In this document: positions 14,169 to 37,821 of the stretch, one piece after another
Layout of the letters: every line of letters starts with the position of its first letter
Numbering within the stretch: position 1 is the stretch's first letter
Origin: Halobacteriovoraceae bacterium
Lineage (GTDB): Bacteria > Bdellovibrionota > Bacteriovoracia > Bacteriovoracales > Bacteriovoracaceae
Length of the DNA stretch: 64,000 nt
Assembly: GCA_002713145.1 (NCBI GenBank)
Contig: PAVS01000020.1
Location: 1-64,000 of the forward strand
Direction of reading: 5' to 3'
Made by a program: the position numbers and the translations under genes
The notes under the pieces: generated by a model
Seen by the model: the letters and a program-made list of their open reading frames with translations, nothing else
The model's database searches: none
What the model was told of the DNA's origin: nothing

Positions 14169-14717
14169 CTAAAGTCTCAATGTCATATATTTTTCAAATA
14201 TAGCATTGACCTCTTCCCCTGTAAGTTCTTCCTTTAATAGGAGTTCATCAACAATAGACTGAATCAATGCTTTGTGCGGCGCAAGCATTTTGATACAATC
14301 TCCCATCTTATAATCTATATAAGCCCTTATTGATGGGTTCTCAATCATATCTAAAGCACTTGGACTTGGTATTGGCAATTCAGCTATCCAATTTTTAAAT
14401 TCAGGAATTTGAAACATGTTTTCTGTTGTTCTAGCCGCAATAGTTAAATCATCACCACCAATATTTGCTACCCCATCAAAAAAGAGTATCTCACTGGCAT
14501 AGCCTCCTAACGAAATCATAATTTTTTTGATTGCCTTTTCTCCTGTAAACTTAACATTCGTATCAGCAGGCTCAAGCTTCATAAAAGCAAGATATTTATC
14601 CCCCCCTAAAGGTGAATCCATCTCCCTCAACGAAATTTTTTGAATCTTTTGCTGACATATTAATGCCATAACGGCATGGCCGGTTTCATGGAATGCAATC
14701 TTTATTTTTTTATTCAA
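14169..14717 (-). CDS. FtsH-protease-domain-like (M41-like) metalloprotein without AAA domain
   Basis: IAFHETGHAVMALI (HExxH), GGYASEILFF, GGDDLTIAARTTENM, matching the FtsH M41 domain order. Confidence 0.75.
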   Translation of the reverse strand: MNKKIKIAFHETGHAVMALICQQKIQKISLREMDSPLGGDKYLAFMKLEPADTNVKFTGEKAIKKIMISLGGYASEILFFDGVANIGGDDLTIAARTTENMFQIPEFKNWIAELPIPSPSALDMIENPSIRAYIDYKMGDCIKMLAPHKALIQSIVDELLLKEELTGEEVNAIFEKYMTLRL

Positions 14718-14758: not shown

Positions 14759-16087
14759 TTAGCCATGTATTAAGTACTCACTTATCAGAGTATCAGCTAA
14801 TGGTAATATTTTTTCTTTTATTTTATCAATTAAATTCGTATTAATTAGCAACATAGAACTATCAATTGATTTTTGAAATGTATCGACTTTTCCAACTTGT
14901 GGATCTAATTCAAGTAACAAACTCACAACAATTGAAGTTCTAAGTATGTTTAATATTTGCCAACTAAAATCTTCAAATTTTCCATACCTTTCAATTACTT
15001 TCTTCTCATATTTTTCAATTTCAACATTTCCATGAGCATAATCACTTCTAATATTATATGCTAATTTGATTAACTGACTATAATCTTGCTGGTGTAACAA
15101 CTTAAAAAGGTGACTCACTCTCATTGTTAAGCGATAGGACAGTTCAGCCCCTTTCTCTGTAAAGATTGCTTCCAGCCCCATTACGGCTGATGATATTTGC
15201 TTTTGGAAAGAATCATAATGAAGTCCATCCCTGTATCTTTCAAATGCAACTTGTAGTGCATTTAACTTCCCTTTAACAAATCCTGCCTCAATCAAAGACT
15301 TCCTTAATAATGGGTATAAATGTTTCAATCCCTTCAATTTTTTTTCGTCTAAACTATAAACAAATCGAATATTTTGACTTGGACGTCCACTCGTTGACCT
15401 ATTATAAACAGAAGAATCGTCACTTGAATATTTTGTCTCGATAGATGAAACACTTCCAACTCCAAACAAGGCAAGTATCCAATGAAACATATCCGTTTCT
15501 CGGTGCAAGTTAATCTCTTTGAGTTTGACTGGTTTTTCGATCTCAACATAAAAAGCTGGGAATTTATATTTTGTGATAAATGATCTTGATGAGTAATAAT
15601 CTTGGAGATCTTTCAATTCTGTTCTACAAAAAGTAATCTTAATCTTATCGAATATAAAATAAAAGCTATCAACTTCAATCCCAACACCTTCTATAGCTGT
15701 TTTAGAGCGAAAAAATAGTTCTCCACAATTAAACTTATTAATTATTCGATCTCGCTCTTTAGAAATACCTTTTGAGTTCTTAGAAAAAATCTCTTGAGCA
15801 AAATCTCGAAAAAGCGAATTATTCTCTGTTATAAAAACGATTTCTTCATCTAGTTTTAAAGTATCCTTAAAGTCATTAATAGCATTAACAAAATGTGATT
15901 CAGAAAAATGCTTGTAAAGGACTGGTGTAATTCGGTTTGGTTCGGTTTTTAAAAAGCCTTTCTCAAACTCAAAGACATAATCAGAACCAAATGACACAGT
16001 TTTACTCTCAACAGGTTTATATGTATTATCAGAGACTTTTTTGTATATAAAATCAACAAATTCATCTAGCAATTTTTCAACATTCAT
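14759..16087 (-). CDS. HEPN-domain (ApeA/Apea-like) protein
   Basis: SSAVMGLEAIFTEKGAELSYRLTMRVSHLF...AYNIRSDYAHG (RX4H). Confidence 0.75.
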   Translation of the reverse strand: MNVEKLLDEFVDFIYKKVSDNTYKPVESKTVSFGSDYVFEFEKGFLKTEPNRITPVLYKHFSESHFVNAINDFKDTLKLDEEIVFITENNSLFRDFAQEIFSKNSKGISKERDRIINKFNCGELFFRSKTAIEGVGIEVDSFYFIFDKIKITFCRTELKDLQDYYSSRSFITKYKFPAFYVEIEKPVKLKEINLHRETDMFHWILALFGVGSVSSIETKYSSDDSSVYNRSTSGRPSQNIRFVYSLDEKKLKGLKHLYPLLRKSLIEAGFVKGKLNALQVAFERYRDGLHYDSFQKQISSAVMGLEAIFTEKGAELSYRLTMRVSHLFKLLHQQDYSQLIKLAYNIRSDYAHGNVEIEKYEKKVIERYGKFEDFSWQILNILRTSIVVSLLLELDPQVGKVDTFQKSIDSSMLLINTNLIDKIKEKILPLADTLISEYLIHG

Positions 16088-16282: not shown

Positions 16283-17221
16283 CTATTTAAATATTAATTC
16301 CTGGAAGAAAGAGCGAAGTCCTTCTTCTTTTCCTAGAATGATATTTATGTGGTTATCATCTCCTATTATCTTTAAAAAAACTTTTTTAACTATAAACTCT
16401 AGATCTCCAGACTTACTCAGCAGTACATCTCTCCGAGTCTTTTTCATAGATTTGCCATGAAATACATAAGATCTAACTTTGTACATATCTTTCAAAAAAG
16501 AATATATTTTCAATCTCTCTTCAAATTCTCTCGCCAGAAAGAAACTTACTCTTTCAGAGACCTGATGTGACAATTCCGTACTTTCTGTATTAAATATGCA
16601 TTCTAAGGAAGATATAAAGAAAGATATTCTCATTGGTAAATCTTGCTGAGACCTCGCGACCTGTATGTGGTAAAGCGCAAGGGAAATTCTTTCGCTATTA
16701 CTAAAAAGTTTATCTCTTGAGTCTATATACTCCCTAGGCATTACTCCGAAGATAGCTTTTACTGAATCCCTTATGACTTTTAACTTTTTTGTGTTTAATG
16801 TTATGAAGTCATTCGTCTCTATTGCCGCACGAACTCTAACTCCAAGATTATTCTTGTCCGTTATCATACCGTGAGAAGGATGATTGGAGAACATGAAGGC
16901 ATCATCTAAATGTATTCCATTATCCTCATAAAACCAACTTCCTGTTAAAAACAACTTTACTTCATACATAAAGTTCAATAGCTCTTTTCTTCTGTCACAA
17001 TCATCATCAACTTCTTCACTCTTATAAAATATAGCCTTAGAGTTAAAGAGGCTATTCACTTCTACAGCGCCAATACTGAACAATAAATCTTTTTCAGAAA
17101 TGTTAGCCGTTATATTTTTATAGCTGTTAGTTAGATAGACACCATCGAGAAATTGTATTCCTTTTTTTTCATTAGTTTGGACTGTAAGTCCGTTTAAATT
17201 CACATAGAAAAATGCATTCAT
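16283..17221 (-). CDS. HEPN-domain protein
   Basis: FISSLECIFNTESTELSHQVSERVSFFLA...VRSYVFHG (RX4H), same architecture as the 14759 ORF. Confidence 0.7.
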   Translation of the reverse strand: MNAFFYVNLNGLTVQTNEKKGIQFLDGVYLTNSYKNITANISEKDLLFSIGAVEVNSLFNSKAIFYKSEEVDDDCDRRKELLNFMYEVKLFLTGSWFYEDNGIHLDDAFMFSNHPSHGMITDKNNLGVRVRAAIETNDFITLNTKKLKVIRDSVKAIFGVMPREYIDSRDKLFSNSERISLALYHIQVARSQQDLPMRISFFISSLECIFNTESTELSHQVSERVSFFLAREFEERLKIYSFLKDMYKVRSYVFHGKSMKKTRRDVLLSKSGDLEFIVKKVFLKIIGDDNHINIILGKEEGLRSFFQELIFK

Positions 17222-17245: not shown

Positions 17246-17686
17246 CTAAAAATTACCCTCATGACATTGCAGGCATACAAGGCCACTACTTCGCCACATT
17301 TTTACAACTTGATCTCTATCATCGAGGACAAAAAGAATCGAAAACCTTTTCTTTATTTTTAAATCGTAGATTTCTTTTTTTATAATCGCATCACCCCTAA
17401 AGTCATTCGTACTTCTTAAAAAAAGATAATTATAAGAAATATCGTACCGACCAAGCCAATCCTCTGTTACTTCTCTATATTTCTCTTCTCGACCACTAAC
17501 AAGGATAATTTTGTAGTCTGCTTTAAATCTGTTGATGACTTCCAAACACCATACATTCAAAGAATCTGAACTCATGTTTGCTTTAAACATTTTCCAATCA
17601 TTCGAATCAATAAGAAACTTACGTCGATGTTCAACATTGGCTAATGTCCCATCAATATCGACTATAATCGCCTTTTTTCTTTCCAT
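17246..17686 (-). CDS. Stand-alone T4 Pnkp/PseT-type polynucleotide 3'-phosphatase (HAD)
   Basis: VDIDGTLANVEHR, VSGREEKYREVTEDWL, LRSTNDFRGDAIIKKEIYD, DDRDQVVKMWRSSGLVCLQCHEGNF match the T4 polynucleotide kinase phosphatase domain; no kinase P-loop. Confidence 0.85.
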   Translation of the reverse strand: MERKKAIIVDIDGTLANVEHRRKFLIDSNDWKMFKANMSSDSLNVWCLEVINRFKADYKIILVSGREEKYREVTEDWLGRYDISYNYLFLRSTNDFRGDAIIKKEIYDLKIKKRFSILFVLDDRDQVVKMWRSSGLVCLQCHEGNF

Positions 17687-20337
17687 TATTCAACGAGCTC
17701 TGCTTGAGGGGGTTTTGTTACTGAAGCCCTTCTTTTAATATCTAATTTATTTTTTCTTGCTTTAATTACTTTGTAGTATTCCTCTAAAATTTTAATATCT
17801 TGATTTATTTCATGAATCTGTGGTCTAACGTCCGAAAGTTGTAACGATTTGTCATGACCTATCATGTACTTTGAAGTTTTACTCATTTCAAAATATATTG
17901 TCCTGTAGTCTTCATCTTCAATCTGTACTCCACTCAATTGCTGTGTATGAACTGCTTGACCAAATCTAGAAATGACTCCATTAAACAGGATTTCTTCAAT
18001 TATTCTCTCCCATACCTCTCTCAGTCGACCATATATAATTGCTGCTCGATGATTATAGTCTTCCCCAGATATTTTATCATTTTCAAGCTTCCTAACCATA
18101 TCTTTTAACACCACAACTCTATTAGCAACTTTTTGAGCATGCCAAGGTTCCTTGTCCAATACGACCCCTGATATGGCTCCATCTTTCCTAATGTTTTGGA
18201 CGTGAACTGGTATGCTAAGTCTTGCTGCTTCATTTGATAAGTCAAATAAAAATGATATATCATGGGTGAAGATTACCACCTGACGCTTTTTGGCTTCCTC
18301 TACTAATCTCGTAGCGATCTTATGCTTGAATTTATGATCTAGTGATGTAACCGGATCGTCCAGAATTATACCATTTTCGTGTTTAGCTGTATCTAATTCT
18401 GCTAAAAATCCTGCAAGGGAAACTATCTTTTGTTCACCTTCACTCAAAACACTGTCTAGTCTAAATTTTTTGGGCAAACTTGTCCCATCAAGAAATAGTT
18501 GAAAATTTGGTTCTCCACCTTTTGTTGAGGACTGAACATCTATAGGCAATCTACTCCCTCCGAGCCTTTTTAGTTCACTTTCAACTGAGTTTATAAATGA
18601 CTTTTTAAGTGAATTAGTGATAATAGCAGAACCTTTGCGAGATATTGCTCCTGTTTCAAATTCTTTTAGAATTTTTTCGTAATTCTTTATTTCTTGAAGG
18701 TATTTGATGTATTTTCCAATTTCGCTAATTTTACTACTAGCAATTTTCAATGAATTCAATTCCTCTTTGTATTTCTTCTTCTTAATTAGCTCTTCTGGAT
18801 TTATACTACCTTTAATTTTTATAATATTTTCTTGAATCAGTTTTTCAGCATCTTCAAAGATCTTGGTTGAGTCGAAATCTTCAATTGTGGTTTGATCTGA
18901 AAGGCTAGTCATGTTTAAATGGCCAATAAACTTCAGTCTGTATTTTTCATACTTTTTTATACGGGAATTCAACTTCCCTCTATCTTCTTTTGATATAAAA
19001 GGCTCTAGATTTTCAATTACATCTAATAGGTGCTTTATCTCAATTTCTTTTTCATTGAGTAACTTGATTGCTTTTTCCTTCCAGTCTTTGAGCTGTTCAA
19101 AAGCTTTGTTTATTCTACCTTCGACAAATTTTTGAAAAGTTAATAATCTTTCTTTTGCATCACTCGAGAGTTTTTGTTGACATAATGGGCACTCTTCACC
19201 AGATTCAGGAAATGTGTAGGCTGGATCAACTATTGCTTCAGCGAAATCTTTTGCGGCAATATACATGACTTTCCATAAGTCACCACCTGTTCCTTCAATA
19301 TGCACCCCTTCTGACATTTCCTTGGTTAAGTCGTCTAATGCTTTTTTTGCACAATTGAACTCGTCTATTTTCGTTCGTAGATTTTGTAATTTTGAATTAG
19401 TAAAAAGCTTCTCTATACTCAAAAAAGAATCTCTAAATGTATCTATCTCTTTCTTTTTAGTTTTAATGTTTTTAATTTTGTGTTCGATTTCAGTTTCATT
19501 CGCAGCTAAGATATCCTTCGAAACTTCAGTAAGCTCAGTATCCTTTTCCTTATTCCAACTAAGCATTTCTTTAAGATCTGTGATATTAGATTGTGAGTTT
19601 ATTTGCGTTAATATTTTATGGATTTTTGTGTTTTCGTTGATACCATCTAAAACTAATTCCACCTCTGCAGGTTTATAGGAAGTAACAATACCCTTTATAT
19701 TATTAATGGCTTCAATAAGCTTTTTAAAAATATCCGTTCCTCCAGGCAAATAGATCAATTCATTTTTATCATTAACCTGTACTTTTCCACACTTAGAGTC
19801 ATATACAACTATTTGACTAAGTTCACTGACAGGCTCACAACCATCTTCCCATATAAATTCTTTTTTCTGACCATTAACCGAATATGCTATCAAAGCATTT
19901 GCAGCTTCCGATGGATCATCTTTAAATACATCCGGTAATATTTCGTCGACTTCCCTTGCTTTACAACTTTTCTTTAGGATTCTAGTAAATCCCGATTTAC
20001 CAACCCCGTTTTCACCATATACAATAGTTAATCCATTTCTGGCAAAAAGCAATTTAGACTGAGCAGATATCGCATTCACATTCTGAGGAGACTTAAGGCT
20101 GTGAAGCTCAATGTTTGAATTTTCGAGATTACCCATCGTAGGAATTTTATTTTTATCTATTTTTGTAGGTTTTATATCTAGATTTTCTATATATTTGTGC
20201 TTGTACAGAACCATGTTTGCAATTTGTTTTATATCTACTTCTGTATATATTCCTTGAGTTAAAATTCTTTTGATCAAATCTTGTTTCCAATCTTCTTGTT
20301 TCTCTGCCCACAGAACTATCTCGTTTAAAATCGTCAA
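17686..20337 (-). CDS. RloC/PrrC-like (AAA_13-type) ABC ATPase with Zn-hook-like CxxC
   Basis: GENGVGKSGFTRIL (Walker A), ECPLCQQKL inside coiled coil, LSEGEQKIVSLAGFLAEL (signature), GIILDDPVTSLD (Walker B); stop overlaps next start as TAATG. Confidence 0.8.
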   Translation of the reverse strand: MTILNEIVLWAEKQEDWKQDLIKRILTQGIYTEVDIKQIANMVLYKHKYIENLDIKPTKIDKNKIPTMGNLENSNIELHSLKSPQNVNAISAQSKLLFARNGLTIVYGENGVGKSGFTRILKKSCKAREVDEILPDVFKDDPSEAANALIAYSVNGQKKEFIWEDGCEPVSELSQIVVYDSKCGKVQVNDKNELIYLPGGTDIFKKLIEAINNIKGIVTSYKPAEVELVLDGINENTKIHKILTQINSQSNITDLKEMLSWNKEKDTELTEVSKDILAANETEIEHKIKNIKTKKKEIDTFRDSFLSIEKLFTNSKLQNLRTKIDEFNCAKKALDDLTKEMSEGVHIEGTGGDLWKVMYIAAKDFAEAIVDPAYTFPESGEECPLCQQKLSSDAKERLLTFQKFVEGRINKAFEQLKDWKEKAIKLLNEKEIEIKHLLDVIENLEPFISKEDRGKLNSRIKKYEKYRLKFIGHLNMTSLSDQTTIEDFDSTKIFEDAEKLIQENIIKIKGSINPEELIKKKKYKEELNSLKIASSKISEIGKYIKYLQEIKNYEKILKEFETGAISRKGSAIITNSLKKSFINSVESELKRLGGSRLPIDVQSSTKGGEPNFQLFLDGTSLPKKFRLDSVLSEGEQKIVSLAGFLAELDTAKHENGIILDDPVTSLDHKFKHKIATRLVEEAKKRQVVIFTHDISFLFDLSNEAARLSIPVHVQNIRKDGAISGVVLDKEPWHAQKVANRVVVLKDMVRKLENDKISGEDYNHRAAIIYGRLREVWERIIEEILFNGVISRFGQAVHTQQLSGVQIEDEDYRTIYFEMSKTSKYMIGHDKSLQLSDVRPQIHEINQDIKILEEYYKVIKARKNKLDIKRRASVTKPPQAELVE

Positions 20338-20629: not shown

Positions 20630-21727
20630 TCACTTATGAATAAAATCCAATCCTTCTGTAGCACCATTCTCCTCAACTCCTGTTAACCTCATGTAATAAG
20701 CCATAGTTTTTAAATCCTTCCAACCACAGATTTTCATTACCTTAATAGGTTCTACACCTGTGCTAATCAGTTGCGTGGCAAAACAAGCTCTTAAAGTATG
20801 AAATTGAATCTCAGGTATCCCAATAGTGCGGCAATGCAATTTTAAAATTTTAGCTTGATTGCCTTTTCTCCATTCAACTAATCGTGGTAAAACAAAACCA
20901 CCTCTAGACCTGTCTAGACTTAATAATATTTTCTTAAGGCTTGAAGAAATAGGAACGTTTCTCCAATAACCAGCCTTTGTACTCTTAAATTCACCGGTTC
21001 TTCGATTGAAAGATCTTTGAACTGTTATTTGCATAGTTGATAGGTCGACATCACTCCATTTTAGAGCATAAAGCTCACCGTTTCTCATTCCTGTTAGTAG
21101 TGCTACTGCCCAAATAGAAAACCATTCATGGTTGGATTCATCCGCTTTATTTAATAAATGAATGATTTCGTTTTTTTTAAGGATTTCAGGCTTTTTGTCA
21201 TATTTTAATATAATTTTCAAGCCAAAGACAGGGCTGTTGTGAACTCCTCTTACAAGTCTTTCTTCGATTGCCCAATTGAATATCATATTGATAGTGTTCT
21301 TAAGCCTTTTTTGAAATGACTTACTTTTACCTTTGCTAATTACTGCATCTAAAACTTCACGACCATCACCTCTAGTAATCTCAGCAGCAGGTCTATCGAG
21401 CCAATCTACTGTCCAGTTATACATCATGCCTACATAATCCTTAATCGTGGCAGGATTATAAGGTCGCTCCAAAAAATTTGACTCTCTTGCAAAACTTTCC
21501 CATTTCAAAACAATCATTCGCCAAGTGAGTCCGTGACCTTCTCTTACGGCAACTTTTGAGGTAAGCCTTTTAATAAGTAGTCTTTCTTGCCTCATTGCTT
21601 CAGACCTTGATTTTAATCCCTTAACTCTTTTCTGAAAACGAATATGAGGCATGGTTTTACTTCTAATATTCACATATACAGCAAAGTTTTTTATTCCCTG
21701 ATTATTCAGATACTCTGTGATTGCCAT
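20630..21727 (-). CDS. Tyrosine recombinase / integrase
   Basis: ALLTGMRNGELYALKWSDVDL ... FHTLRACFATQLISTGVEPIKVMKICGWKDLKTMAYYMRL. Confidence 0.92.
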   Translation of the reverse strand: MAITEYLNNQGIKNFAVYVNIRSKTMPHIRFQKRVKGLKSRSEAMRQERLLIKRLTSKVAVREGHGLTWRMIVLKWESFARESNFLERPYNPATIKDYVGMMYNWTVDWLDRPAAEITRGDGREVLDAVISKGKSKSFQKRLKNTINMIFNWAIEERLVRGVHNSPVFGLKIILKYDKKPEILKKNEIIHLLNKADESNHEWFSIWAVALLTGMRNGELYALKWSDVDLSTMQITVQRSFNRRTGEFKSTKAGYWRNVPISSSLKKILLSLDRSRGGFVLPRLVEWRKGNQAKILKLHCRTIGIPEIQFHTLRACFATQLISTGVEPIKVMKICGWKDLKTMAYYMRLTGVEENGATEGLDFIHK

Positions 21728-21738
21728 GCCTCTATCCT

Positions 21739-21909
21739 TTAACCAATACCTGTTTCTATAAAGTGATCAAGTTCGGATTTCTTAAAATATAGTCTTCCGT
21801 GCCACTTTCTTTTTTCAATGAATCCCCTACTCACCATCAGCCATAAAGCATTTTTGGTGCGACCAATGTATTTAACTGCCTCTTCAGTTGTTAACCATTT
21901 TTTTTCCAT
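21739..21909 (-). CDS. AlpA/excisionase-like HTH protein (not in ORF track)
   Basis: Hand-translated: MEKKWLTTEEAVKYIGRTKNALWLMVSRGFIEKRKWHGRLYFKKSELDHFIETGIG. Confidence 0.75.
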   Translation of the reverse strand: MEKKWLTTEEAVKYIGRTKNALWLMVSRGFIEKRKWHGRLYFKKSELDHFIETGIG

Positions 21910-21918
21910 TCATCCCCC

Positions 21919-22227
21919 TTAGAGATTCGAGAATCCAATTAGACTAGCATTCACCTCTTCATACCTTTTCATTTCGCCTTCAGTCGTTCTAAATTCTTTT
22001 AATAACTTACGGCCCTGAACAAAAACATCACTACCTTTTCTTAGATATTGATTGGCAAGCTCTGCCTGTTTTCCCCACACTACAACTTTATTCCAATGGG
22101 TCTTTTGCTGTTCTTCATCATTAACTGCTACAGATAAATAACATACAGGCTTTTGATTTCTGGTGTATCTGAGTTCTGGTTCTTTACCTAGTCTTCCAAT
22201 AAATAATTGTCTGTTCTCATTGTTCAT
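21919..22227 (-). CDS. ssb: Single-stranded DNA-binding protein
   Basis: MNNENRQLFIGRLGKEPELRYTRNQKPVCYLSVAVNDEEQQKTHWNKVVVWGKQAELANQYLRKGSDVFVQGRK; start trimmed from 22257. Confidence 0.92.
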   Translation of the reverse strand: MNNENRQLFIGRLGKEPELRYTRNQKPVCYLSVAVNDEEQQKTHWNKVVVWGKQAELANQYLRKGSDVFVQGRKLLKEFRTTEGEMKRYEEVNASLIGFSNL

Positions 22228-22243
22228 AATAGTTCTCCTAGTG

Positions 22244-22618
22244 TTAATTAATTCCAAGCTTCTTTACTAAAAATTCACCCAAGGTTAGCGACTGGCCAGT
22301 CTTCTTGTTGTGATCTAAAAGAGCAATCTCTACCTTTTCCATCTCACTGAGGCTTTGCTCTTTTATTTTGTCGATGTCTTTAGCTGTGAGCTTGCTAACA
22401 GCATAAAGACAAAGGTCTTTGAAAAGGATTGGCTTGCCATAATTCTTTTCATTGCATTTAAGTAGAAAATCAAAAATCAAACTTAGACTCTCTTGTTTAT
22501 TACTTAAATCTACAAAAAACTTTGTTTGCTCTTTATTGATTTGAACTTCCTTTATTTGATTTTTTGGTTTTCTTCCTCTTCTTTTTACTTCTTCTTTATC
22601 TATATTTTCCATACTCAC
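22244..22618 (-). CDS. Hypothetical protein (possible mobilisation accessory)
   Basis: 124-aa ORF between ssb and the inverted-repeat region. Confidence 0.5.
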   Translation of the reverse strand: MSMENIDKEEVKRRGRKPKNQIKEVQINKEQTKFFVDLSNKQESLSLIFDFLLKCNEKNYGKPILFKDLCLYAVSKLTAKDIDKIKEQSLSEMEKVEIALLDHNKKTGQSLTLGEFLVKKLGIN

Positions 22619-22629
22619 TCCTTTTTTAA

Positions 22630-22761
22630 CTTGCTCGCATTACGACTGATAATTATTACTCGCGCGTAGAAACTGACTCCATCCATCGATCAACGTGAGA
22701 GGGAGGGAGTCAGTTTCTCCGCGCGGGATTCATTAATAATTTCAACGAATTAGCGAGCAAG
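22630..22761. repeat. Nested inverted repeats; candidate oriT or replication origin
   Basis: CGCGCGtAGAAACTGACTCC (22661-22680) - 25 nt - GGAGTCAGTTTCTcCGCGCG (22706-22725); outer arms CTTGCTCGC (22630-22638) / GCGAGCAAG (22753-22761). Confidence 0.7.
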
Positions 22762-23527
22762 AATTTTTATCACTGTTGTGCTCTTTCACCCCATTTTCAC
22801 CCATCAAAAACTTTGAAATCAAAACCTTTTGCCCATGACAAATACCTTCCAAATTATCCAGTTCTGTGACTTCGGCAGTCATGGCCTTATCAGTTACAAA
22901 CAAAAACTTATCTATATTCTTCTCACCAACAGCTTCGCTAATAACTTCAATATAAGTTTTCATGACAGATTCTTTTGAAAAAAAGTAAACAATATAGTTA
23001 TACCTGCTGTTGATAATGTATTGCTTTGCCTTTTCTTTAATTCTTTGTTTGTGCTTCTGAGTTAACTCAAGCTCAAAGGCAATTTGAACCTTCTTCCCTT
23101 CTCTTCTAGTTTCTAATAAGGCATCTGGAATAACCTTATAAACAGCTCGAAAATCTCTTTTGTTTTGAAGTTCATGCTCTAAGGTAATCTGATCAATCCA
23201 GCCAAGTTTTATGAAGTTTCTGGCAATCTCAGTTACTTTTATGTCATGAATAAGAGATTCCTTAGAAATGGCTGTAGGATTTTTTTCTTTTGCGAGTTGG
23301 CTTTCTCCGAAATGGCTAAAATAGATATATTTTTTGCCATTAAATCTGTGTTTATAACCTTCAAGTACATTTGCTTTTTCCATTTTCCTGATGACTCTAG
23401 CAAAGTGAGAATAATTCGGATCAGCGTCACATTCACTTCTTAAGCTTTCTAGATCCATAACACGCCATTTTAATAGCGGTGTTAAATAGTTTACATAAAT
23501 ACTGTTCAAATGATTTAAATCCTTCAA
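22742..23527 (-). CDS. Replication-relaxation-family-like protein
   Basis: N-terminal winged-helix-like region, then VIPDALLETRREGKKVQIAFELELTQKHKQRIKEKAKQY; next to the coupling protein. Confidence 0.65.
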   Translation of the reverse strand: MKDLNHLNSIYVNYLTPLLKWRVMDLESLRSECDADPNYSHFARVIRKMEKANVLEGYKHRFNGKKYIYFSHFGESQLAKEKNPTAISKESLIHDIKVTEIARNFIKLGWIDQITLEHELQNKRDFRAVYKVIPDALLETRREGKKVQIAFELELTQKHKQRIKEKAKQYIINSRYNYIVYFFSKESVMKTYIEVISEAVGEKNIDKFLFVTDKAMTAEVTELDNLEGICHGQKVLISKFLMGENGVKEHNSDKNSCSLIR

Positions 23528-23535
23528 GTTACCCC

Positions 23536-24999
23536 CTAATAGTTTTTAGATGTAAGACGATTCAATTTCGCCATGTCTTCTAACTTTCTATTTCTTATAT
23601 TAATTAAATTGATTCTTGTTGGGCCTTGCCTTAAGAGAATGCATTGACCAATATTTAAATTCTTGATGATGTCAGGATGCACAAGAAGTTCATTAACCTC
23701 TCTTATACTTCCTTTGGTTTGCTGCTGGCCATCTTCCATCATGAAGGTCTCTTTCTTAGAAGTAATTGTTCCAATGGCATCAGCAAATAACGATGCCGAA
23801 TTATCTAATCTTTGCTTTAAGACAAACAAATTACCTGCATTCTCTATTACTTGTTTGGTTAGATCTGGATTGATTCGATCAATATCTGATGCAGTTTGAA
23901 CAGCAAGTGTTAGCTCAATCCCTGCACCTCTGCATTTATTTTGTAATTCTATAAAGTCAGGTGTAACTAAAGAGCCAAACTCATCGAAATAAACACTTAT
24001 AGGATTTTTAAGTCCTCCTTGAGGGTCATCTTTAGCACTTAAGGTTTTATAAGAATTATATAAGAGTTCTCCTAAAAATAATTTTCCAATGGCCATAGCT
24101 GTTTCTCCATAGCCTTGAGTTGAAAGTCCGATATAAAGGCAGGCTCTCTCTTCCCTTATCTTAGATAGGGTCAATCCATCATGTTCTGAATTAAGAATCT
24201 TTCCAAAATCTGACTCAAGTATCGCCTCTATCTTAGCTATTAATCCTATATTTTCTTTTGATTCCAGCTTTAAAAGCTCTTCAAAGATGGCTTGAAGCGT
24301 GAAAGCTTGTCCTTCTAAATCTAAAACCTTCAATGCTTGAGTTAAGCTTCTTCTAGAGGAATCTCGATAAAAAGGTTCGCTCCAATCAAAAGATCTCATT
24401 ATTCTGTCCACTACTTGGTTAACAGTTCCCTCTAATACTGGATTTAGTGAAATTGAATTACTGTAGTGTTCCGAAAAGATATAACAAGCTCTATCATGTT
24501 TTTCACATATCTCTTTAAACGTTGTTAAGGCTTCCATATCACCTTTAGGATCAAAGAAAACAATAGGTTTATTATTTCTTAGAGTGTGTTCTTGCAGGAT
24601 ACTCATTAGGTTTGTTTTCCCAAATCCTGAAGCTCCCACTATAAAGCTATGACGTCTAAAATCTATATCCTTCATAAGAAAGTCTTTTTTGTTTTTTGCG
24701 TCAACCCCAAGTGCTTCTATTTGAGAAGTTTGTTTTGATGTTCGTAATGAGTTTCTTTCAATCTTCGATAAATCTGGTTTCTTCTTTAAAAGCTTTCTGA
24801 ATAGCCATTTAGCAATTAAGTTAAGAACTTCCCCAATAATCATACATATTTCGTGGAAAACCTCATAAACTGGTGTGAAAAGATCAATTGGCTGTGAGGT
24901 TTTCTTATTGCTCATAAACGTGCTCCCATGCTTTAAAAGGACTGATTTGAATGGTTCTATTGCCCAGATCAAGTGTTCTGGCTTCAGATTTATATTCAA
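23536..24999 (-). CDS. virD4: VirD4/TraG-type coupling protein
   Basis: RRHSFIVGASGFGKTNLMSILQEHTLRNNKPIVFFDPKGDMEAL; ISVYFDEFGSLVTPDFIELQNKCRGAGIELTLAVQTASD. Confidence 0.9.
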   Translation of the reverse strand: MNINLKPEHLIWAIEPFKSVLLKHGSTFMSNKKTSQPIDLFTPVYEVFHEICMIIGEVLNLIAKWLFRKLLKKKPDLSKIERNSLRTSKQTSQIEALGVDAKNKKDFLMKDIDFRRHSFIVGASGFGKTNLMSILQEHTLRNNKPIVFFDPKGDMEALTTFKEICEKHDRACYIFSEHYSNSISLNPVLEGTVNQVVDRIMRSFDWSEPFYRDSSRRSLTQALKVLDLEGQAFTLQAIFEELLKLESKENIGLIAKIEAILESDFGKILNSEHDGLTLSKIREERACLYIGLSTQGYGETAMAIGKLFLGELLYNSYKTLSAKDDPQGGLKNPISVYFDEFGSLVTPDFIELQNKCRGAGIELTLAVQTASDIDRINPDLTKQVIENAGNLFVLKQRLDNSASLFADAIGTITSKKETFMMEDGQQQTKGSIREVNELLVHPDIIKNLNIGQCILLRQGPTRINLINIRNRKLEDMAKLNRLTSKNY

Positions 25000-25411
25000 T
25001 AATAAATTGTTTTTTTACCTTTCCTTCAAGTTCAGGAGGTAGCTTTTCTAATGGAACCTCATACTTTTTAACAGGTTTAAAATTAACCTCAGGCTTGATG
25101 TTTTTAAGCTCATCACTAAAGTCAAAGAGCGGCACATTTTCTTGTTTAATTTCATGATCATCAAGCAACAGGGAATGCTTTTCTTTTTTAGGCTTCTTGT
25201 CGTGCATTAAATATGCAATGCCTGCACCTGCAACCGCACCAATGACGCCACCTAAATAAGCATTTTTGTTGGTAGATTCCTCGTTGGGTGAAAATACTGC
25301 ACCACCAGTGCCACCAACGAGCCCCCCAACCATAGCTCCACTTACTATCGATTTTTTAAGAGTAGAGCACGAAGAAAGCATTAAAACTAAAGGAAGTATA
25401 AAAGTTTTCAT
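24905..25411 (-). CDS. Lipoprotein with glycine-zipper, T4SS-associated
   Basis: LMLSSCSTLKK lipobox; GAMVGGLVGGTGGAVF...GGVIGAVAGAGIAYL. Confidence 0.7.
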   Translation of the reverse strand: MKTFILPLVLMLSSCSTLKKSIVSGAMVGGLVGGTGGAVFSPNEESTNKNAYLGGVIGAVAGAGIAYLMHDKKPKKEKHSLLLDDHEIKQENVPLFDFSDELKNIKPEVNFKPVKKYEVPLEKLPPELEGKVKKQFIIEYKSEARTLDLGNRTIQISPFKAWEHVYEQ

Positions 25412-26154
25412 TTCAGTGCCTCCATAAAATAAATAATGACATCGGTACCCGCATCAACAGTAATTTTAGGAACGGAGCTTTTCCTTTCCTCCAATAAAAC
25501 ATCTGATGTTGTATCAGCAGAGCTTATGGCTCCTTGAAGAATTTGATTTCTCACGGAATTGTCTTGAACTGATCCAAACGGAGTAGAAATTCGATTCTGA
25601 GCGGCTGACAGCATCCCTTTTGAGAAATCTGATATCACAGCCCCAGCAATTAGAGCTTCTTTGTTTCCTTCATAAAGCCCTTCAAGACCACTTGATCCAT
25701 CAAGATTTAGTAATTGAGCAGAAATCACTAATTCTTTACTTTCCGTAATCATTTTGCTGCAAACGCAAAACACTCTTTTATCTCTAGTTGTAGCCTGACA
25801 AGAAAATTTTGTATTATATGGAAGTCCTTGATTAGGATAAGCTTTAACCAAGACTGGACTAGCTAAGTTTGTCGAAACGATAGTGTTTAAAAGTCTTCCT
25901 TTATAAGCCTTCCCTGTAAGTATTCTATCATTTGACTCCCATATTATTGGCTTAGCGGAACGGGCCCTCAGCAATTGATTTATCTTTTTGTTATTCTCAA
26001 TTAACTTTGAAATGACATCATCCTTTTCCCTACTGTTTGCTTTTTTTGAACTTTCTATCTTTTTAGGCTTACCAGATAGTCTTGTTATTCTTGGTTCTTT
26101 CGAAAAAAGGTTGAAGGGAATCACTACGACTAAAAAAATCGTTAAATACTTCAT
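25408..26154 (-). CDS. virB10: VirB10/TrbI-like T4SS protein
   Basis: ILTGKAYKGRLLNTIVSTNLASPVLVKAYPNQGLPYNTKFSCQATTRDKRVFC...; C-terminal VDAGTDVIIYFMEAL. Confidence 0.7.
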   Translation of the reverse strand: MKYLTIFLVVVIPFNLFSKEPRITRLSGKPKKIESSKKANSREKDDVISKLIENNKKINQLLRARSAKPIIWESNDRILTGKAYKGRLLNTIVSTNLASPVLVKAYPNQGLPYNTKFSCQATTRDKRVFCVCSKMITESKELVISAQLLNLDGSSGLEGLYEGNKEALIAGAVISDFSKGMLSAAQNRISTPFGSVQDNSVRNQILQGAISSADTTSDVLLEERKSSVPKITVDAGTDVIIYFMEALK

Positions 26155-26168
26155 AAATTTCCTTAATT

Positions 26169-26639
26169 TTAGTTTAAAACACGTTCGTTATTGATGAATA
26201 TTGGCACGCCCTTCGAAAAATACTCCTTCCGATTGATTTCTTTAGAGTTTACAAATAACGGTTCACTTTTTTTATTTATAATCAAAACTGAACTTTTACC
26301 TTCGAGGATTTCATAGTCAGTCGTATGAAGTTTTTTACTTAAGTTATGACTTTTAACTCCATCAAAGACTTCTATAAATTGGTGAGGCTTAGTTTCAGAA
26401 TATTTAAGATTGAAGTAATACTTATTCGATTTGGTTATAACTAACAAATTAGAATAATCAGATTTCATTAATGGTTTAATTGCAAGTGTCTTATTCTTAT
26501 TTGTGACTTTAAAATAAATTTCTTCCTTACTACCACCGTACATATAAGATATTATTTCCGAGTCAAAGCTTAACGTCGTCATTAAGTTCAAACTTAGCAG
26601 CAAAAAAGTAACTTGATTCGCTAGAATATAAAAACTCAT
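26169..26639 (-). CDS. VirB9/TraK-like T4SS protein (by position and character)
   Basis: Secreted beta-rich protein between VirB8-like and VirB10-like genes. Confidence 0.5.
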   Translation of the reverse strand: MSFYILANQVTFLLLSLNLMTTLSFDSEIISYMYGGSKEEIYFKVTNKNKTLAIKPLMKSDYSNLLVITKSNKYYFNLKYSETKPHQFIEVFDGVKSHNLSKKLHTTDYEILEGKSSVLIINKKSEPLFVNSKEINRKEYFSKGVPIFINNERVLN

Positions 26640-27091
26640 ATCACCTCCTCTTTAATTGGAAGTTCATCAAGTTGAATTAATTTATAGTGAAATGGAAAAC
26701 TCGAGTTTTCTGCTAGACCAATTTTAAAAGCTAAAAGTTTCGCTTCACTTTTGATAATTATCTTACATGCTCCATTCTCAAGCGATGAAATTCTCAATAT
26801 ATTATCTAGCTTTATGTAGAAGGGCTCTTTCTCTACAAGTTCGATAATATCTTTGGAGATTAGGCTGGAATTTGGAGTTCCGCTTGCCAGACTTTCAAAA
26901 GATGCCTTACAAACATCTTCAGCTAGAAGTCTCTCCTCAAATATCTTTCCATTATTATAAATGAAGTACGTTTTGCTCGTGATAACAGATAAACAAGTTA
27001 TACTACAAATGAAAAGACACAAGACTAGTGCTGTTTTGAATCTTCTATTTTCTTTTACAAAAATTGCTTCAAAATCTTTATAATCGACCAT
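26636..27091 (-). CDS. VirB8/TraE-like T4SS protein
   Basis: Single N-terminal TM plus periplasmic domain; syntenic position. Confidence 0.5.
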   Translation of the reverse strand: MVDYKDFEAIFVKENRRFKTALVLCLFICSITCLSVITSKTYFIYNNGKIFEERLLAEDVCKASFESLASGTPNSSLISKDIIELVEKEPFYIKLDNILRISSLENGACKIIIKSEAKLLAFKIGLAENSSFPFHYKLIQLDELPIKEEVI

Positions 27092-28385
27092 TTTTCCCCC
27101 TTAGATACTTAGGTTTTTCTGCTTTGTTTTTATAAAAAGTAGGTTTGGATGAAATCTTACTTTCGACCTTCTTAAATCCTGTTATTTCTCTGTCAAAATT
27201 TTGTTTCACTTTTACCTTTGAATTTATTTCATTTTTTGGATTTCTTTTTATGAATTCTGAACCGCTGGTTTGCCTTATAAGGCCACTACTTTGTTTACTT
27301 ATTGATTTACCGCTGTTCTCAGTCACTTGAGCATTAGTTGCAAGTGCCCCATTGTTCACGTTTTTATTTACAATGGAACCTCGTTCTACCGTCTTTTCAC
27401 TTTTCTTGTTTGAGCCTGACTCTGGGGTAATTACTCTATTTGAAGAATTCTTTATTTCTTTTGATTTACTTGGTTGTAATTTCAAAGAACTATAATTGGA
27501 TTTCTTATTATCCTGTAATTTATTATTTAAAGTTCTGCTAAAAGGGTTAATGTTATTTAGTCGAGATATCGCCATCATTTTAGATATCAGAGGATAAAAT
27601 GCCATAGCTTTAAATCCAGAACTAACGACCATTGAGCCCATCTTCGAACCAAACGAGTGAACTCCATCACCTCGTATCATTCCGAATGTGATTAATGGAG
27701 AAATAAGCAACAACAAAGTTACTCCAAACAACCAGATGATTGAGTCTATTTTAGCAATGATTAGCTCACCATTTATTGCTTGTGACTCTATACTGTTCCC
27801 AACTAGGGCCAAGATAGCCACAATCACAAATGGCATTATCATGCACCATAGGGATGCTTGAATGGTTCCTTTTAAAGCATCTTTGGTCCAGCCTAGAAAG
27901 TATAGAATTGCAGTAACACCTGCAAATATATAAGTTAAATGATAAACGCTAGAATATATGAGCTTAAGCAACCAAATAAAGATTTTTGCGAGCACAAAAA
28001 ATGCTGTTCCTACAAGATCGTTAAAGTTAGGTATGATTATTTCTTTAAAGCTATCCCAAGAAGCTTTTGACTTTGTTTTTAACTTTTTTTGAGTCCACTT
28101 TTTAATAAATAGATTTGTGGGACTCACTCTCTTAAGAGTACTATTCGCACTATCTAGCGAGATTTTTGTTGCTTCAGTATGAAAAGAATAGAAACTTCCT
28201 ATAAACAGGATTACAATAATTAGTTTTTTAATAACTTGTCCGAAGTTCATATCATTAAAATATTCAATAATTAGTGCTAGCGTAAATATTGGTAGAATAA
28301 AATATTCAGCAATATCTATTAATTCCTTGTATAAACGGAAAATACTAGGATCTTCTATAAGGAGCATATCTTGAATTATATTCAT
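27078..28385 (-). CDS. virB6: VirB6/TrbL-like membrane protein
   Basis: Multi-TM N-terminal half and a long Ser/Lys/Asn-rich tail; T4SS position. Confidence 0.65.
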   Translation of the reverse strand: MNIIQDMLLIEDPSIFRLYKELIDIAEYFILPIFTLALIIEYFNDMNFGQVIKKLIIVILFIGSFYSFHTEATKISLDSANSTLKRVSPTNLFIKKWTQKKLKTKSKASWDSFKEIIIPNFNDLVGTAFFVLAKIFIWLLKLIYSSVYHLTYIFAGVTAILYFLGWTKDALKGTIQASLWCMIMPFVIVAILALVGNSIESQAINGELIIAKIDSIIWLFGVTLLLLISPLITFGMIRGDGVHSFGSKMGSMVVSSGFKAMAFYPLISKMMAISRLNNINPFSRTLNNKLQDNKKSNYSSLKLQPSKSKEIKNSSNRVITPESGSNKKSEKTVERGSIVNKNVNNGALATNAQVTENSGKSISKQSSGLIRQTSGSEFIKRNPKNEINSKVKVKQNFDREITGFKKVESKISSKPTFYKNKAEKPKYLRGKNGRL

Positions 28386-29044
28386 TCCTTCTCCTCCTTA
28401 TTGGTATAGAACTTTTCTTTTTGAATTTGTTCTAACCGTTTCTCTTCAAGCTCTTCCGCTTTTAATCTATTACTGGTCGATAATTTCTCTAATATTTCTA
28501 ATTGGGTATTGTGCATTTCTAAATTTTGTTCATAGATTAATGCAGTGTTTTGAGCAGTTAACTGTGAGGTCTTCCCTGTCGTTTTCGCTTTTTTAGCACT
28601 TTGAATTTGATGTTTAGCTAGTTTAGATTTTTTATTATTTATCTGCTTTTGAATCTGAACTTGATACTTAGCTCTATCCTCATCGTTTTTGATTATTTTG
28701 TATTCTTTCATTAGTGATTTTAATTCGCTCATTGAATATTTTAACTCTCTAATGGTCCAATTTAGCTGTTCCAAATTCTGCGCATCTTTTCTTGCTGCAA
28801 GGGATTCAGCTATAAAAAGAATTCTTTCGGCTCTCCAGTAGTGATCCATAGCAAGCTCGTTATACTTCTGTATTTTCTCGGTGTACTTTTCAGCATTAGA
28901 TAATAATTTTTCAAGCTCATTTAATTGACTCACAGTTGTAGAAGCAATTTCCAATAGCACGAGGGTCTCTTCTCCAAACATAGAGCTATGCACCGGTTTT
29001 ATAAAACTAAAAGACATCAGAAGTAGTACTAATTTAAATTTCAC
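28382..29044 (-). CDS. VirB5/TrbJ-like secreted coiled-coil protein
   Basis: Signal peptide, long charged helices, located between VirB4 and VirB6 genes. Confidence 0.6.
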   Translation of the reverse strand: MKFKLVLLLMSFSFIKPVHSSMFGEETLVLLEIASTTVSQLNELEKLLSNAEKYTEKIQKYNELAMDHYWRAERILFIAESLAARKDAQNLEQLNWTIRELKYSMSELKSLMKEYKIIKNDEDRAKYQVQIQKQINNKKSKLAKHQIQSAKKAKTTGKTSQLTAQNTALIYEQNLEMHNTQLEILEKLSTSNRLKAEELEEKRLEQIQKEKFYTNKEEKE

Positions 29045-30911
29045 TATCGACCTCCCAACGTGGATATTTTAGAGAGGTATAATTAATGATAGATTTTTTA
29101 AATCCAAAGTACCTCTGTGTTTCCTCAAGATATTTTTCTAAAGAATTGTTATCGTTCTTGTCAGAGGTGAATATCTCATATTCAATTTCCGAAGGATAGA
29201 ACCTCATAATCTTTTTTAAGGTTTCACTTAGCAATAAGAATTCGCTGAAGTTCCCTTTCTCCGACTGGACACCACTCAAAAGGTCAATGGAATGTTCATC
29301 CACAAATTCATTAATTGATAAGTTTTGCTTAAATAAAAATTTCCAGAAAGTATTTTGAATAATAACTCTCCCAAGTTGGGTTTCGGAAAAATCATCCAGA
29401 TTTTGTGAAATTGCAATGGCACTAGCATTATGTTTTCTGAATGTGCGAAAACACTCAGCTATATAGTCACCGTTCTTTTTTAATAAATGCCAACATTCAT
29501 CAAAAATGAATATTTTCTTTCCTTTTAAGTTTCTAAAATACTCAATTAGATAAATTATCAAAGGTGCTTTCATTGATTCAGGATAGTTAGAAAAGTCACA
29601 GTATGTAAGTTTATTTAATTCTTTAAAATCTTCTTCGAAAAACTCCTTCAATTCCGAGAAATAAAAACCTATTCCTGCAAAGTCTTTCTCAAGATGCTCT
29701 AGTAAGACACTAAATGATTTGCATTCGCCATCAGATATTATTCTGGAAATACACTCATATAATTTACCTTGGTCTTTCTTATTTAAAGCATCATCCATAC
29801 CTGCAAGGATGAATTCCTTTAAGTATTTAGGATTTCTAAATTGCATTGGATTGAACTTTCTAGATAATACTGTTCCGTTATTGTATCTGGTGGTTTTGTA
29901 AAAAGAGTTTCCTAGGTCTAATACAACTCCAGAAGCTCCTGTTTTAAGCTCCTCGTTTAAAATCTTATTTGCGATAACTGATTTTCCCTGACCAGAAGTC
30001 CCAGTGATAAGTAGGTTATAATTGAGTGCATTCTTTTGAAATAGGTCAAAATTAACGTTTTTGAGCATTCTACTTTTCAATGAAAAGCCCTTATCGTGAA
30101 CATAGTCACTGTGGAAAGGAACGAGATAGCTCAGATAGTCAGAAGGACATAATTGAGATCTTTTGAAAGATGGTTTAACTCCAGGGAGGCAAGTCGTGTA
30201 AAAATATGATAATCCTCTTGTCTCAACTATAACCTCAGCTTCTATCTCCCTCAAATACTCAACAAAACTATCTGTTTTTAAATCTAAACTATCTTTAGTT
30301 TCTGCCGAAATTATTAAAAACATCTCCACATCGAAAAGTGACTTATCTCCACGAGTGATATTTTCTAATATCTCTTCTGCTTCTTTGTAGGCATTTTCAG
30401 AATCAACATCTCGCATATCCTTAAACAGATTTGAGTAGTGAATTCTTCGTTTAAAATTAATCTTATTTTTAGCCTCTATTTTAGATAATTTCCTAATATT
30501 TATCACAAAATCAGGCCAATAAGTTGTATCTAGTAAGTCGATAGAGTTTGGAAACTCTTTTATCGAAATCACTCTTTGATAAGTATTGTTGCTCAATAGA
30601 TAGTTTTCATAAAAATTTATTTCATCAGCGTTTTTTCCACAAAATTTCTCTAATGGACTTATAGCTTCTTGAGCATTTAGCCCACTGGGGCTATCACCAC
30701 CAAAGTAGTTAAAATATAATTCATTATTTATTGAAAAAATCTTTAGAGTGTTTTGAAGACTACTGAGATTTGTTTCCAGCTTTTTAAGTAGTGATAGTTT
30801 TTGAGAAAAAGTCACTCCCTCCATGTCTGGAGGGGTGACTTTTACAAAGGAGCTATAATGTCCATCAGTTGATACTAGCTGATGTCCGTCTACTTTAAAT
30901 AAAGGGATCAT
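29034..30911 (-). CDS. virB4: VirB4/TraC ATPase
   Basis: NYNLLITGTSGQGKSVIANKILNEELKTGASGVVLDLGNSF; KKIFIFDECWHLLKKNGDYIAECFRTFRKHNASAIAISQNLDDF. Confidence 0.93.
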   Translation of the reverse strand: MIPLFKVDGHQLVSTDGHYSSFVKVTPPDMEGVTFSQKLSLLKKLETNLSSLQNTLKIFSINNELYFNYFGGDSPSGLNAQEAISPLEKFCGKNADEINFYENYLLSNNTYQRVISIKEFPNSIDLLDTTYWPDFVINIRKLSKIEAKNKINFKRRIHYSNLFKDMRDVDSENAYKEAEEILENITRGDKSLFDVEMFLIISAETKDSLDLKTDSFVEYLREIEAEVIVETRGLSYFYTTCLPGVKPSFKRSQLCPSDYLSYLVPFHSDYVHDKGFSLKSRMLKNVNFDLFQKNALNYNLLITGTSGQGKSVIANKILNEELKTGASGVVLDLGNSFYKTTRYNNGTVLSRKFNPMQFRNPKYLKEFILAGMDDALNKKDQGKLYECISRIISDGECKSFSVLLEHLEKDFAGIGFYFSELKEFFEEDFKELNKLTYCDFSNYPESMKAPLIIYLIEYFRNLKGKKIFIFDECWHLLKKNGDYIAECFRTFRKHNASAIAISQNLDDFSETQLGRVIIQNTFWKFLFKQNLSINEFVDEHSIDLLSGVQSEKGNFSEFLLLSETLKKIMRFYPSEIEYEIFTSDKNDNNSLEKYLEETQRYFGFKKSIINYTSLKYPRWEVDSEI

Positions 30912-31159
30912 TCTTGGCTCCTATTTTCAACTCTAATTTTTAGGTATTTCAGATTTGAAACAAAAAAGACCTTAAGGTCATATTTTCTACGGACATAGCA
31001 CATTGCGCATACAAATAATCCACATACTAAGAAGCTGACTAGAGAATCTAATCCTAGAAAGATACAACCATATAATCCTAATATAAGGGCAATCAGTTCA
31101 TGATGACCCATTCCCCATATTTCAGGATTTGCCTTTAAAAATTTTGGGAATCTTATCAT
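30908..31159 (-). CDS. VirB3-like inner-membrane protein
   Basis: 83 aa, hydrophobic, directly upstream of virB4. Confidence 0.6.
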   Translation of the reverse strand: MIRFPKFLKANPEIWGMGHHELIALILGLYGCIFLGLDSLVSFLVCGLFVCAMCYVRRKYDLKVFFVSNLKYLKIRVENRSQE

Positions 31160-36621: not shown

Positions 36622-37821
36622 TTGACTAAAAAATATATGTCTTTTTTTTCAGGAGCTTTAGGACTAGATCTCGGTTTAGAAGAAGCTGGTTTAGAAGCGG
36701 TATCATACAATGAGATTGAAAAAGTTTTTTGTAAAACAATAAAAACAAATAAACCTGAAACTCACCTTTATGAATGTGATATCAGAGAATTAAATGCCAA
36801 AATGCTTCTCAAAGATCATGGATTAAAAAAAGGTGAACTCTTCGCCATCGTTGGTGGCCCACCATGCCAAGCATTTAGCACTGCTGGAAAAAGAAAAAGC
36901 CTGCAAGATGAAAGAGGAAATGTTTTTCTACATTTCATTGACATCATTGAAGGTATGAGACCCAAATACGCAATCATTGAGAATGTCAGAGGGTTACTTT
37001 CTGCAGCTATGAAACATAGGCCTCATAATGAAAGGGGGGAAGGTTATCCTGCCCTCACAGTTGAAGAATCCCCTGGAGGGGCACTAGCACATATAATAGC
37101 GAAGCTGGAAAAAGCTGGCTACAAAGCATCTTTTACACTTTATAATTCTGCCAACTTCGGAGTACCTCAAGTAAGAGAAAGAGTTGTGATACTTGCTAGT
37201 CGAGAAGGAAAGGAAATTCCTTTTGTTGCTAAAACTCATTCAGACAAAGATGATAACTTACCACCTTGGAAAACGACTAAAGATGCTATCTGGGACTTAA
37301 GAAATAGAAAAACCTTGGAACATACTAAGTTTCCTGAAAAAAGATTAAAATATTACCGATTGCTTACCTCAGGTCAAAACTGGAGATCACTTCCTGTAGA
37401 ATTACAAAAAGAAGCTATGGGAAAGAGCTTTTACTCAGGAGGAGGAAAAACTGGATTTCTCAGAAGATTAGATTGGAATAAACCATCACCTACACTGGTA
37501 ACAAGCCCAACCATGCCAGCGACAGACCTATGTCATCCTGACAAAGACAGGCCTCTATCTGTTGAGGAGTATGCTAGGATTCAAACATTTCCTGATACTT
37601 ATAAATTCGAAGGAAAAACTCTTGATAAATACAAACAACTAGGAAATGCGGTTCCTTGTGGTTTAGGCAAAGCCATTGGCGAACATCTTATAAAATTTGA
37701 TGAAGGTAAATTAGAAAAATATAATACAGACGGTAAACTTTCTCGATACCTAAATACTGATCATAAATCTTGGTATCAAAATCTCAGAAAAGAGCATACT
37801 GACTTAACACTATTTCAATAA
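36622..37821 (+). CDS. DNA cytosine-5 methyltransferase (type II)
   Basis: FSGALGLDLGLEEAG, VGGPPCQAFSTAGKR, ENVRGLL, YARIQTFPDTYKF, QLGNAVPCGL. Confidence 0.97.
   Translation: MTKKYMSFFSGALGLDLGLEEAGLEAVSYNEIEKVFCKTIKTNKPETHLYECDIRELNAKMLLKDHGLKKGELFAIVGGPPCQAFSTAGKRKSLQDERGNVFLHFIDIIEGMRPKYAIIENVRGLLSAAMKHRPHNERGEGYPALTVEESPGGALAHIIAKLEKAGYKASFTLYNSANFGVPQVRERVVILASREGKEIPFVAKTHSDKDDNLPPWKTTKDAIWDLRNRKTLEHTKFPEKRLKYYRLLTSGQNWRSLPVELQKEAMGKSFYSGGGKTGFLRRLDWNKPSPTLVTSPTMPATDLCHPDKDRPLSVEEYARIQTFPDTYKFEGKTLDKYKQLGNAVPCGLGKAIGEHLIKFDEGKLEKYNTDGKLSRYLNTDHKSWYQNLRKEHTDLTLFQ

Follow-up and report, generated by a model that had tools for sequence, protein, structure and literature searches.

The 64,000-nucleotide window analysed here, the whole stretch of contig PAVS01000020.1 (positions 1 to 64,000, GenBank assembly GCA_002713145.1) from a Halobacteriovoraceae bacterium, carries two overlapping genes, one encoding a large zinc-hook ATPase with an RloC-type C-terminal triad and the other a stand-alone 3'-phosphatase of the T4 polynucleotide kinase-phosphatase (Pnkp) type. 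Their coupling is genuine but lineage-restricted, being neither a coincidence nor a general trait of these ATPases. Tentatively, and at somewhat less than even confidence, we propose that ATPase and phosphatase act as a single functional module, and that this module is a variant RloC-type defence in which the phosphatase locks the cleavage made by the nuclease.

Recurrence of the ATPase-phosphatase pair

The ATPase open reading frame (ORF) occupies positions 17686-20337 of the minus strand and encodes 883 amino acids (aa) from a TTG start codon, which coincides with the position where homologues begin with ATG. The phosphatase ORF (17246-17686, minus strand, 146 aa) follows directly. The junction reads ...GTTGAATAATGGAAAG..., and at GAATAATGG the TAA stop of the ATPase and the ATG of the phosphatase overlap as TAATG. 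An earlier, sequence-only reading of the locus had placed both genes and their overlap correctly.

A search for the ATPase over 369 genomes of the window's phylum returned 12 matches, eight of which have a complete gene and readable downstream sequence. At five of these eight assessable loci (the window, G055, G322, G248 and G279) the phosphatase gene comes next on the same strand, immediately downstream of the ATPase, with a spacing of -1, +2, +2, -4 and -4 bp, respectively, and at the other three (G225, G229 and G243) no phosphatase is found nearby. The ATPase loci of G055 and G322 are 96% identical and were therefore counted as one event. Phosphatase genes are present in 53 of the 369 genomes. 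About 50 genomes of family f1 have a stand-alone HAD_PNKP gene, in most cases at one or two chromosomal positions with conserved synteny. In family f6, the lone HAD_PNKP gene found belongs to the ATPase operon of G279, a sign that the two genes moved as a unit. By a rough estimate, which assumes about 3,500 genes per genome and a phosphatase gene in every genome, linkage by chance at four out of seven independent loci has a probability of less than 1e-11. Genes were called by simple filtering of ORFs, a number of contigs are short, and a contamination of 8% is listed for the window genome. Chance adjacency of the pair was rejected after this survey.

Outside the phylum, the phosphatase was found beside none of 80 loci of homologous ATPases. 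Some of these loci adjoin restriction-modification-like genes, and no downstream partner recurs among them. A general partnership across the ATPase family was thus rejected, and the phosphatase is therefore an accessory and no obligatory antitoxin. The sequence-only reading had taken rarity of the pair among homologous ATPases as a sign of coincidence; such rarity is found in other phyla, whereas within the phylum the pair recurs in at least two ATPase lineages.

The genes that follow the pair differ at all linked loci save the near-identical G055 and G322: two HEPN-like genes in the window and, elsewhere, an HTH gene, a gene without Pfam match and a DUF6602 gene. A larger conserved operon was rejected on this ground, and since the downstream neighbours vary between linked loci, the ATPase-phosphatase pair alone is the conserved unit. 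Plasmid records common to both genes were absent among the best 60 of 597 phosphatase matches and the best 60 of 268 ATPase matches. No description of an ATPase-Pnkp phosphatase pair was found in the literature searched.

Architecture of the ATPase

The features of the two genes, with the evidence for each, are as follows.

17686..20337, minus strand: ATPase, SMC/Rad50-type ATP-binding cassette (ABC) protein with zinc hook and C-terminal RloC-type triad (PDC-S06 model PDLC04891, E 4e-198)
19990..20016, minus strand: Walker A GENGVGKSG, residues 108-116 (G108, G113 and K114 invariant or nearly so)
19180..19191, minus strand: zinc hook CPLC, C383 and C386, inside a long helical insert (both Cys in 89/89 homologues)
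18430..18447, minus strand: ABC signature LSEGEQ, residues 631-636 (homologue alignment)
18334..18369, minus strand: Walker B / D-loop IILDDPVTSLDH, residues 657-668 (homologue alignment)
17722..18129, minus strand: C-terminal all-helical domain, residues 737-872, predicted four-helix bundle, HEPN-like (AlphaFold, Foldseek)
18007..18021, minus strand: R773-x3-E777 (REVWE), first two residues of the RloC-type triad (R in 87/89, E in 89/89)
17854..17856, minus strand: H828, third triad residue (E-x50-H), within IGHD (H in 87/89)
17684..17688, minus strand: TAATG stop/start overlap (sequence)
17246..17686, minus strand: stand-alone T4-Pnkp-type HAD 3'-phosphatase, 146 aa (HAD_PNKP E 1.7e-38; Pnkp1 and T4 Pnkp structures)
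17645..17659, minus strand: HAD nucleophile motif DIDGT, D10 and D12 (invariant in linked HADs; aligned with T4 Pnkp)
17315..17323, minus strand: HAD motif DDR, D122 and D123 (invariant in linked HADs; aligned with T4 Pnkp)

The ATPase is a full-length match to the PADLOC candidate PDC-S06 (model PDLC04891, residues 1-862), and the matched models cover the ATPase alone. Across 89 homologues, C383, C386, K114, G634, D661, H692 (the linchpin His) and E777 are invariant, and R773 and H828 are each kept in 87. The triad R773-x3-E777-x50-H828 falls within the published RloC rule, Arg-x3-Glu-x36-52-His (PMC2610378), and the spacing from Glu to His ranges from 47 to 52 across the family. Walker A, LSEGEQ, Walker B, CPLC, REVWE and IGHD, all named in the sequence-only reading, are present; the 'AVH' histidine that it had also singled out is not conserved among homologues. 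In the AlphaFold model, CPLC is flanked by long helices, and this helical insert splits an SMC/Rad50-like ABC head (Foldseek E ~1e-8 to cohesin, SMC and Rad50 heads), with Lamassu and retron ATPases ranking lower among the matches. The Pfam Rad50_zn_hook match has an E of 0.005 and lies under the Pfam cut-off.

The ATPase shares with RloC (Davidov and Kaufmann 2008, PMC2610378) an ABC ATPase interrupted by a coiled coil with a CXXC zinc hook, a length within the range of 658-897 aa, the R-x3-E-x36-52-His triad, a rare start codon and a mobile or defence context. It is nevertheless unmatched by Pfam AAA_13 (PF13166; the PrrC/RloC-type family) even at E up to 1, and a search of the whole window genome with AAA_13 gave nothing at 1e-10. 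As no PrrC match was obtained in PADLOC either, membership of the ATPase in PrrC or AAA_13 was rejected. The comparison set consisted of AAA_13 proteins drawn from genomes that also carry a PDC-S06 relative, in which two full-length RloC-type proteins (L255 and L256) and one partial protein (L257) show the pattern R-x3-E-x38-44-H. When profiles of the window-type ATPases and this set were compared, the second half of the ABC domain alone aligned (probability 98). Because the alignment is confined to this region, the two groups have the ABC core in common, and their C-terminal likeness rests on the triad pattern. A RloC-like function of the ATPase is likely by architecture, while its sequence falls outside the RloC family. 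The sequence-only reading, in which the ATPase was RloC/PrrC-like, holds for the ABC head split by a zinc-hook coiled coil and for the triad, and does not hold at the level of family membership. Besides these sequence relationships, the window ATPase differs from RloC in having a dedicated 3'-phosphatase gene, and its cleavage activity is a prediction. PrrC is a compact ABC ATPase of 341-416 aa, half the size of the window ATPase and without a zinc hook.

Since PADLOC labels L255, L256 and L257 as PDC-S06 too, we note that this label (models PDLC04886-PDLC04898) spans AAA_13 RloC-type proteins as well as the present non-AAA_13 subfamily, and survey counts of PDC-S06 therefore mix RloC-type proteins with a distinct group. 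A scan for close viral relatives of the ATPase turned up none.

The C-terminal domain was modelled by AlphaFold as four helices (pLDDT 89, pTM 0.82). HEPN toxins head its Foldseek list, but the matches are weak (E 0.29-0.5, best probability 0.84 for 7bxo_H) and a C-terminal profile search found no solved relative. A HEPN identity of the C-terminus, as considered in the sequence-only reading, is therefore likely at most. The canonical HEPN motif Rx4-6H is absent, with no conserved Arg 4-6 residues ahead of the conserved H828; in its place, the C-terminus carries the R-x3-E...H pattern of RloC and PrrC.

The putative effector of the window system is fused to its ATPase. The ATPases of Lamassu, retron and PARIS resemble it in using an SMC/Rad50-like head as defence sensor (Foldseek and HMM similarity), whereas the effectors of those systems are separate nucleases or Toprim proteins.

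The stand-alone phosphatase

The small ORF matches Pfam HAD_PNKP (PF25109) over positions 2-143 of 143, with 132 bits against a cut-off of 27.6, and in PHROG 505 (phage polynucleotide kinases) it matches the C-terminal half, at positions 159-295 of 295. Its best match in the PDB is the phosphatase domain of Pnkp1 (4xrp, E 9e-26), and the phosphatase half of T4 Pnkp (1ltq) is matched as well. The kinase half is lacking, and the 146-aa protein corresponds to a complete T4-Pnkp-type 3'-phosphatase domain, in agreement with the sequence-only reading. In the 1ltq alignment, D10, D12, R21, R66, D99, D122 and D123 align with active-site residues of T4 Pnkp, whose catalytic residues we take to be D165, D167, R176, R213, D254, D277 and D278. 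The same seven residues are invariant in the ATPase-linked phosphatases. The protein is thus predicted to be a phosphatase with intact active-site residues, like T4 Pnkp and Pnkp1 in its complete HAD domain and unlike them in standing alone, without a kinase domain, in a bacterial operon. It is the sole HAD_PNKP gene in the window genome, and it matches no PADLOC model.

Evolution of the pair

The linked ATPases split into two subfamilies that are about 25% identical to each other, and, given the strongly supported branches of the ATPase tree, the phosphatase must have been gained at least twice. The linked phosphatases, about 50% identical to that of the window, fall in a 10-row clade (support 97/94) together with a Pigmentibacter plasmid copy and four chromosomal copies, and in a wider tree, with viral copies included, they make up one side of a branch with a support of 79. 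The simplest reading is that a single phosphatase lineage was taken up by two ATPase lineages or exchanged between them; trees of about 150 columns are weak, and the linked phosphatase may have a single origin.

Stand-alone Pnkp phosphatases are frequent in viral contigs (47 of 80 matches), and no PDC-S06 ATPase was found near these viral copies. A phage origin of the linked phosphatase was rejected, as the linked copies group with the phylum's own chromosomal copies and the viral ones have no such ATPase beside them.

Phosphatase genes with other neighbours were also seen. A stand-alone phosphatase about 51% identical to that of the window lies, without the ATPase, on a plasmid of Pigmentibacter ruber that also has genes for phage structural proteins such as baseplate J (L166, 8998-9444, plus strand). 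In family f1 genomes (L126-L165), the syntenic chromosomal phosphatase often lies just downstream of a large transporter/acyltransferase-like gene, and in G126 (L150, 3322-3786, minus strand) this type of phosphatase is coupled to yet another gene, whose product of 564 aa looks ribonucleotide-reductase-like at its N-terminus and whose end it overlaps (gap -4 bp).

Mobile-element and defence context

In the window, the pair adjoins a phage-type integrase, an SSB gene and conjugation genes. The minus-strand region at 20630-31000 contains the integrase, SSB, a TraG/TrwB-like coupling protein, TrbI- and CagX-like genes and a TraG-type ATPase, and the pair is apparently cargo of an integrative conjugative element. 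As attachment repeats of the element, weak two-copy repeats only were detected, none of them convincing.

Just downstream of the pair, the minus-strand genes at 16283-17221 and 14759-16087 contain the R-x4-H motifs RSYVFH and RSDYAH. Such motifs are typical of HEPN RNases. The gene at 14759-16087 also weakly matches the ApeA-type model HEPN_Apea (E 0.025). These two genes are not kept at the other linked loci, whose neighbours include AbiEi/AbiEii-like and Mrr-type restriction genes, and no DNase is conserved at the linked loci.

Two further genes of the window were observed. Downstream of the HEPN-like genes, a 182-aa solo M41 (FtsH-type) metalloprotease domain without AAA domain is encoded at 14169-14717 on the minus strand, and it is unusual alone. 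Beyond the conjugation genes lies a C-5 cytosine DNA methyltransferase (36622-37821, plus strand, E 2e-65).

RNA-repair capacity of the host

RtcB is absent from the window genome and seven relatives (0 of 8 genomes). The RNA_ligase model matches just two proteins in the window genome, which are NAD- and ATP-dependent DNA ligases, and the ATPase-phosphatase operon has no kinase or ligase gene. With no RtcB in these eight genomes, the host's own RtcB was rejected as the repair route that the phosphatase might block; an action against a phage-encoded RtcB is possible.

Proposed mechanism and alternatives

In the mechanism that we propose, the Rad50-like zinc-hook ATPase would sense a DNA state linked to infection, which by analogy with RloC may be broken or linear DNA, and an ATP-driven change would free the C-terminal R-x3-E/H domain to act as a metal-independent RNase. 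The target would most likely be the tRNA anticodon loop, and the products would carry 2',3'-cyclic phosphate and 5'-OH ends. The co-translated phosphatase, which may cooperate physically or catalytically with the ATPase, would then strip the 3' or cyclic phosphate to leave 3'-OH ends that resist RtcB-type sealing and are exposed to 3'-to-5' exonucleases, and the RNA would be committed to decay. In effect, the phosphatase would lock the cut, as RloC does through excision of the wobble nucleotide. RloC leaves 2',3'-cyclic phosphates upon this excision and is activated by linear DNA (PMC2610378, PMC3874168). The phosphatase step would not be a healing one, because the operon has no kinase or ligase and no recognised RNA-sealing enzyme was found in the host. 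As is established for RNA repair in T4, conversion to 3'-OH ends is of use to repair only when a 5'-kinase and then an ATP-dependent RNA ligase act on the RNA afterwards. The pair of the window combines the same chemistries, those of an R-x3-E/H RNase and a Pnkp-type 3'-phosphatase, that meet in PrrC-EcoprrI and phage T4 Pnkp/Rnl1. In T4, however, the phosphatase is on the phage side with kinase and ligase, whereas in the window it is on the nuclease side without either.

Several observations weigh against this locking mechanism. The phosphatase is dispensable for this ATPase family, because it is missing at all 80 loci of other phyla and at three of the eight in the phylum. The C-terminus of the ATPase has a HEPN match at E 0.29 and no solved relative by profile. 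No report of a tested member of this ATPase subfamily was found. The T4 RNA-ligase-1 model is unmatched in the window genome but also in every control genome, so that such a ligase may yet be present. 5'-phosphorylation is possible too, as the window genome encodes a P-loop protein that weakly resembles kinases (G000:C15, E 8e-8).

That kinase-like protein would serve a healing antidote, in which the phosphatase mends 3' ends after accidental or mild nuclease activity and host kinase and ligase reseal the tRNA, as T4 Pnkp and Rnl1 do against PrrC. The T4 enzyme is known to act in this way (PMC3874168); the gene overlap suggests coupled expression, and the frequency of stand-alone Pnkp phosphatases in viral contigs also speaks for it. 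We consider this alternative rather improbable, and together with a block on host RtcB it is less likely than the sequence-only reading had assumed, because RtcB is absent from the eight genomes and the RNA_ligase matches of the window genome are DNA ligases. The operon itself supplies no sealing partner, and most relatives of the ATPase lack the phosphatase, which argues that the nuclease needs no antidote. Processing of DNA ends, with the SMC-like ATPase acting on DNA ends and the phosphatase clearing 3'-phosphates of broken DNA for a nuclease or repair enzyme, would suit an ATPase whose fold is nearest to SMC and Rad50 heads. T4 Pnkp phosphatase moreover acts on DNA as well as RNA. The conserved RloC-type RNase triad and the lack of a conserved DNase at the linked loci make this alternative improbable.

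A resident chromosomal phosphatase might instead have landed behind the ATPase by chance, with the promoter alone in common, and both the largely syntenic stand-alone HAD_PNKP genes of family f1 and the confinement of the linkage to one phylum fit such a passenger. It is quite unlikely, as the phosphatase takes the same position and spacing in at least two ATPase lineages, the linked copies form a cluster separate from the main syntenic ones, G279 sits in a family otherwise without the gene, and the chance estimate is very small. Finally, the phosphatase could counter phage or host factors such as 3'-phosphates or 2',3'-cyclic nucleotides of another source, unmatched to the product of the ATPase. 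The versatility of HAD enzymes would allow this, and the large number of Pnkp phosphatases in viruses would indicate an activity that phages use; the specific, recurrent pairing with one ATPase type nevertheless renders an independent role very unlikely.

Phages classically answer anticodon nucleases by repairing the RNA, and the textbook case of this arms race is T4 Pnkp and Rnl1 against PrrC. A bacterial RloC-like protein that is co-translated with a phosphatase of this chemistry, gained at least twice, would place that chemistry on the opposite side of the conflict. It is doubtful, at our present estimate, that the pair represents the first example of a RloC-type anticodon-nuclease defence with its own RNA-end phosphatase used offensively, such that host and phage could hardly reseal the RNA. 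If true, a Pnkp-type repair activity would serve as the commitment step for abortive infection. The PDC-S06 candidates gain a subgroup whose partner gene predicts an RNA-end substrate, and the pair makes a testable question of whether removal of the 3'-phosphate locks a toxin's cut or helps to reverse it.

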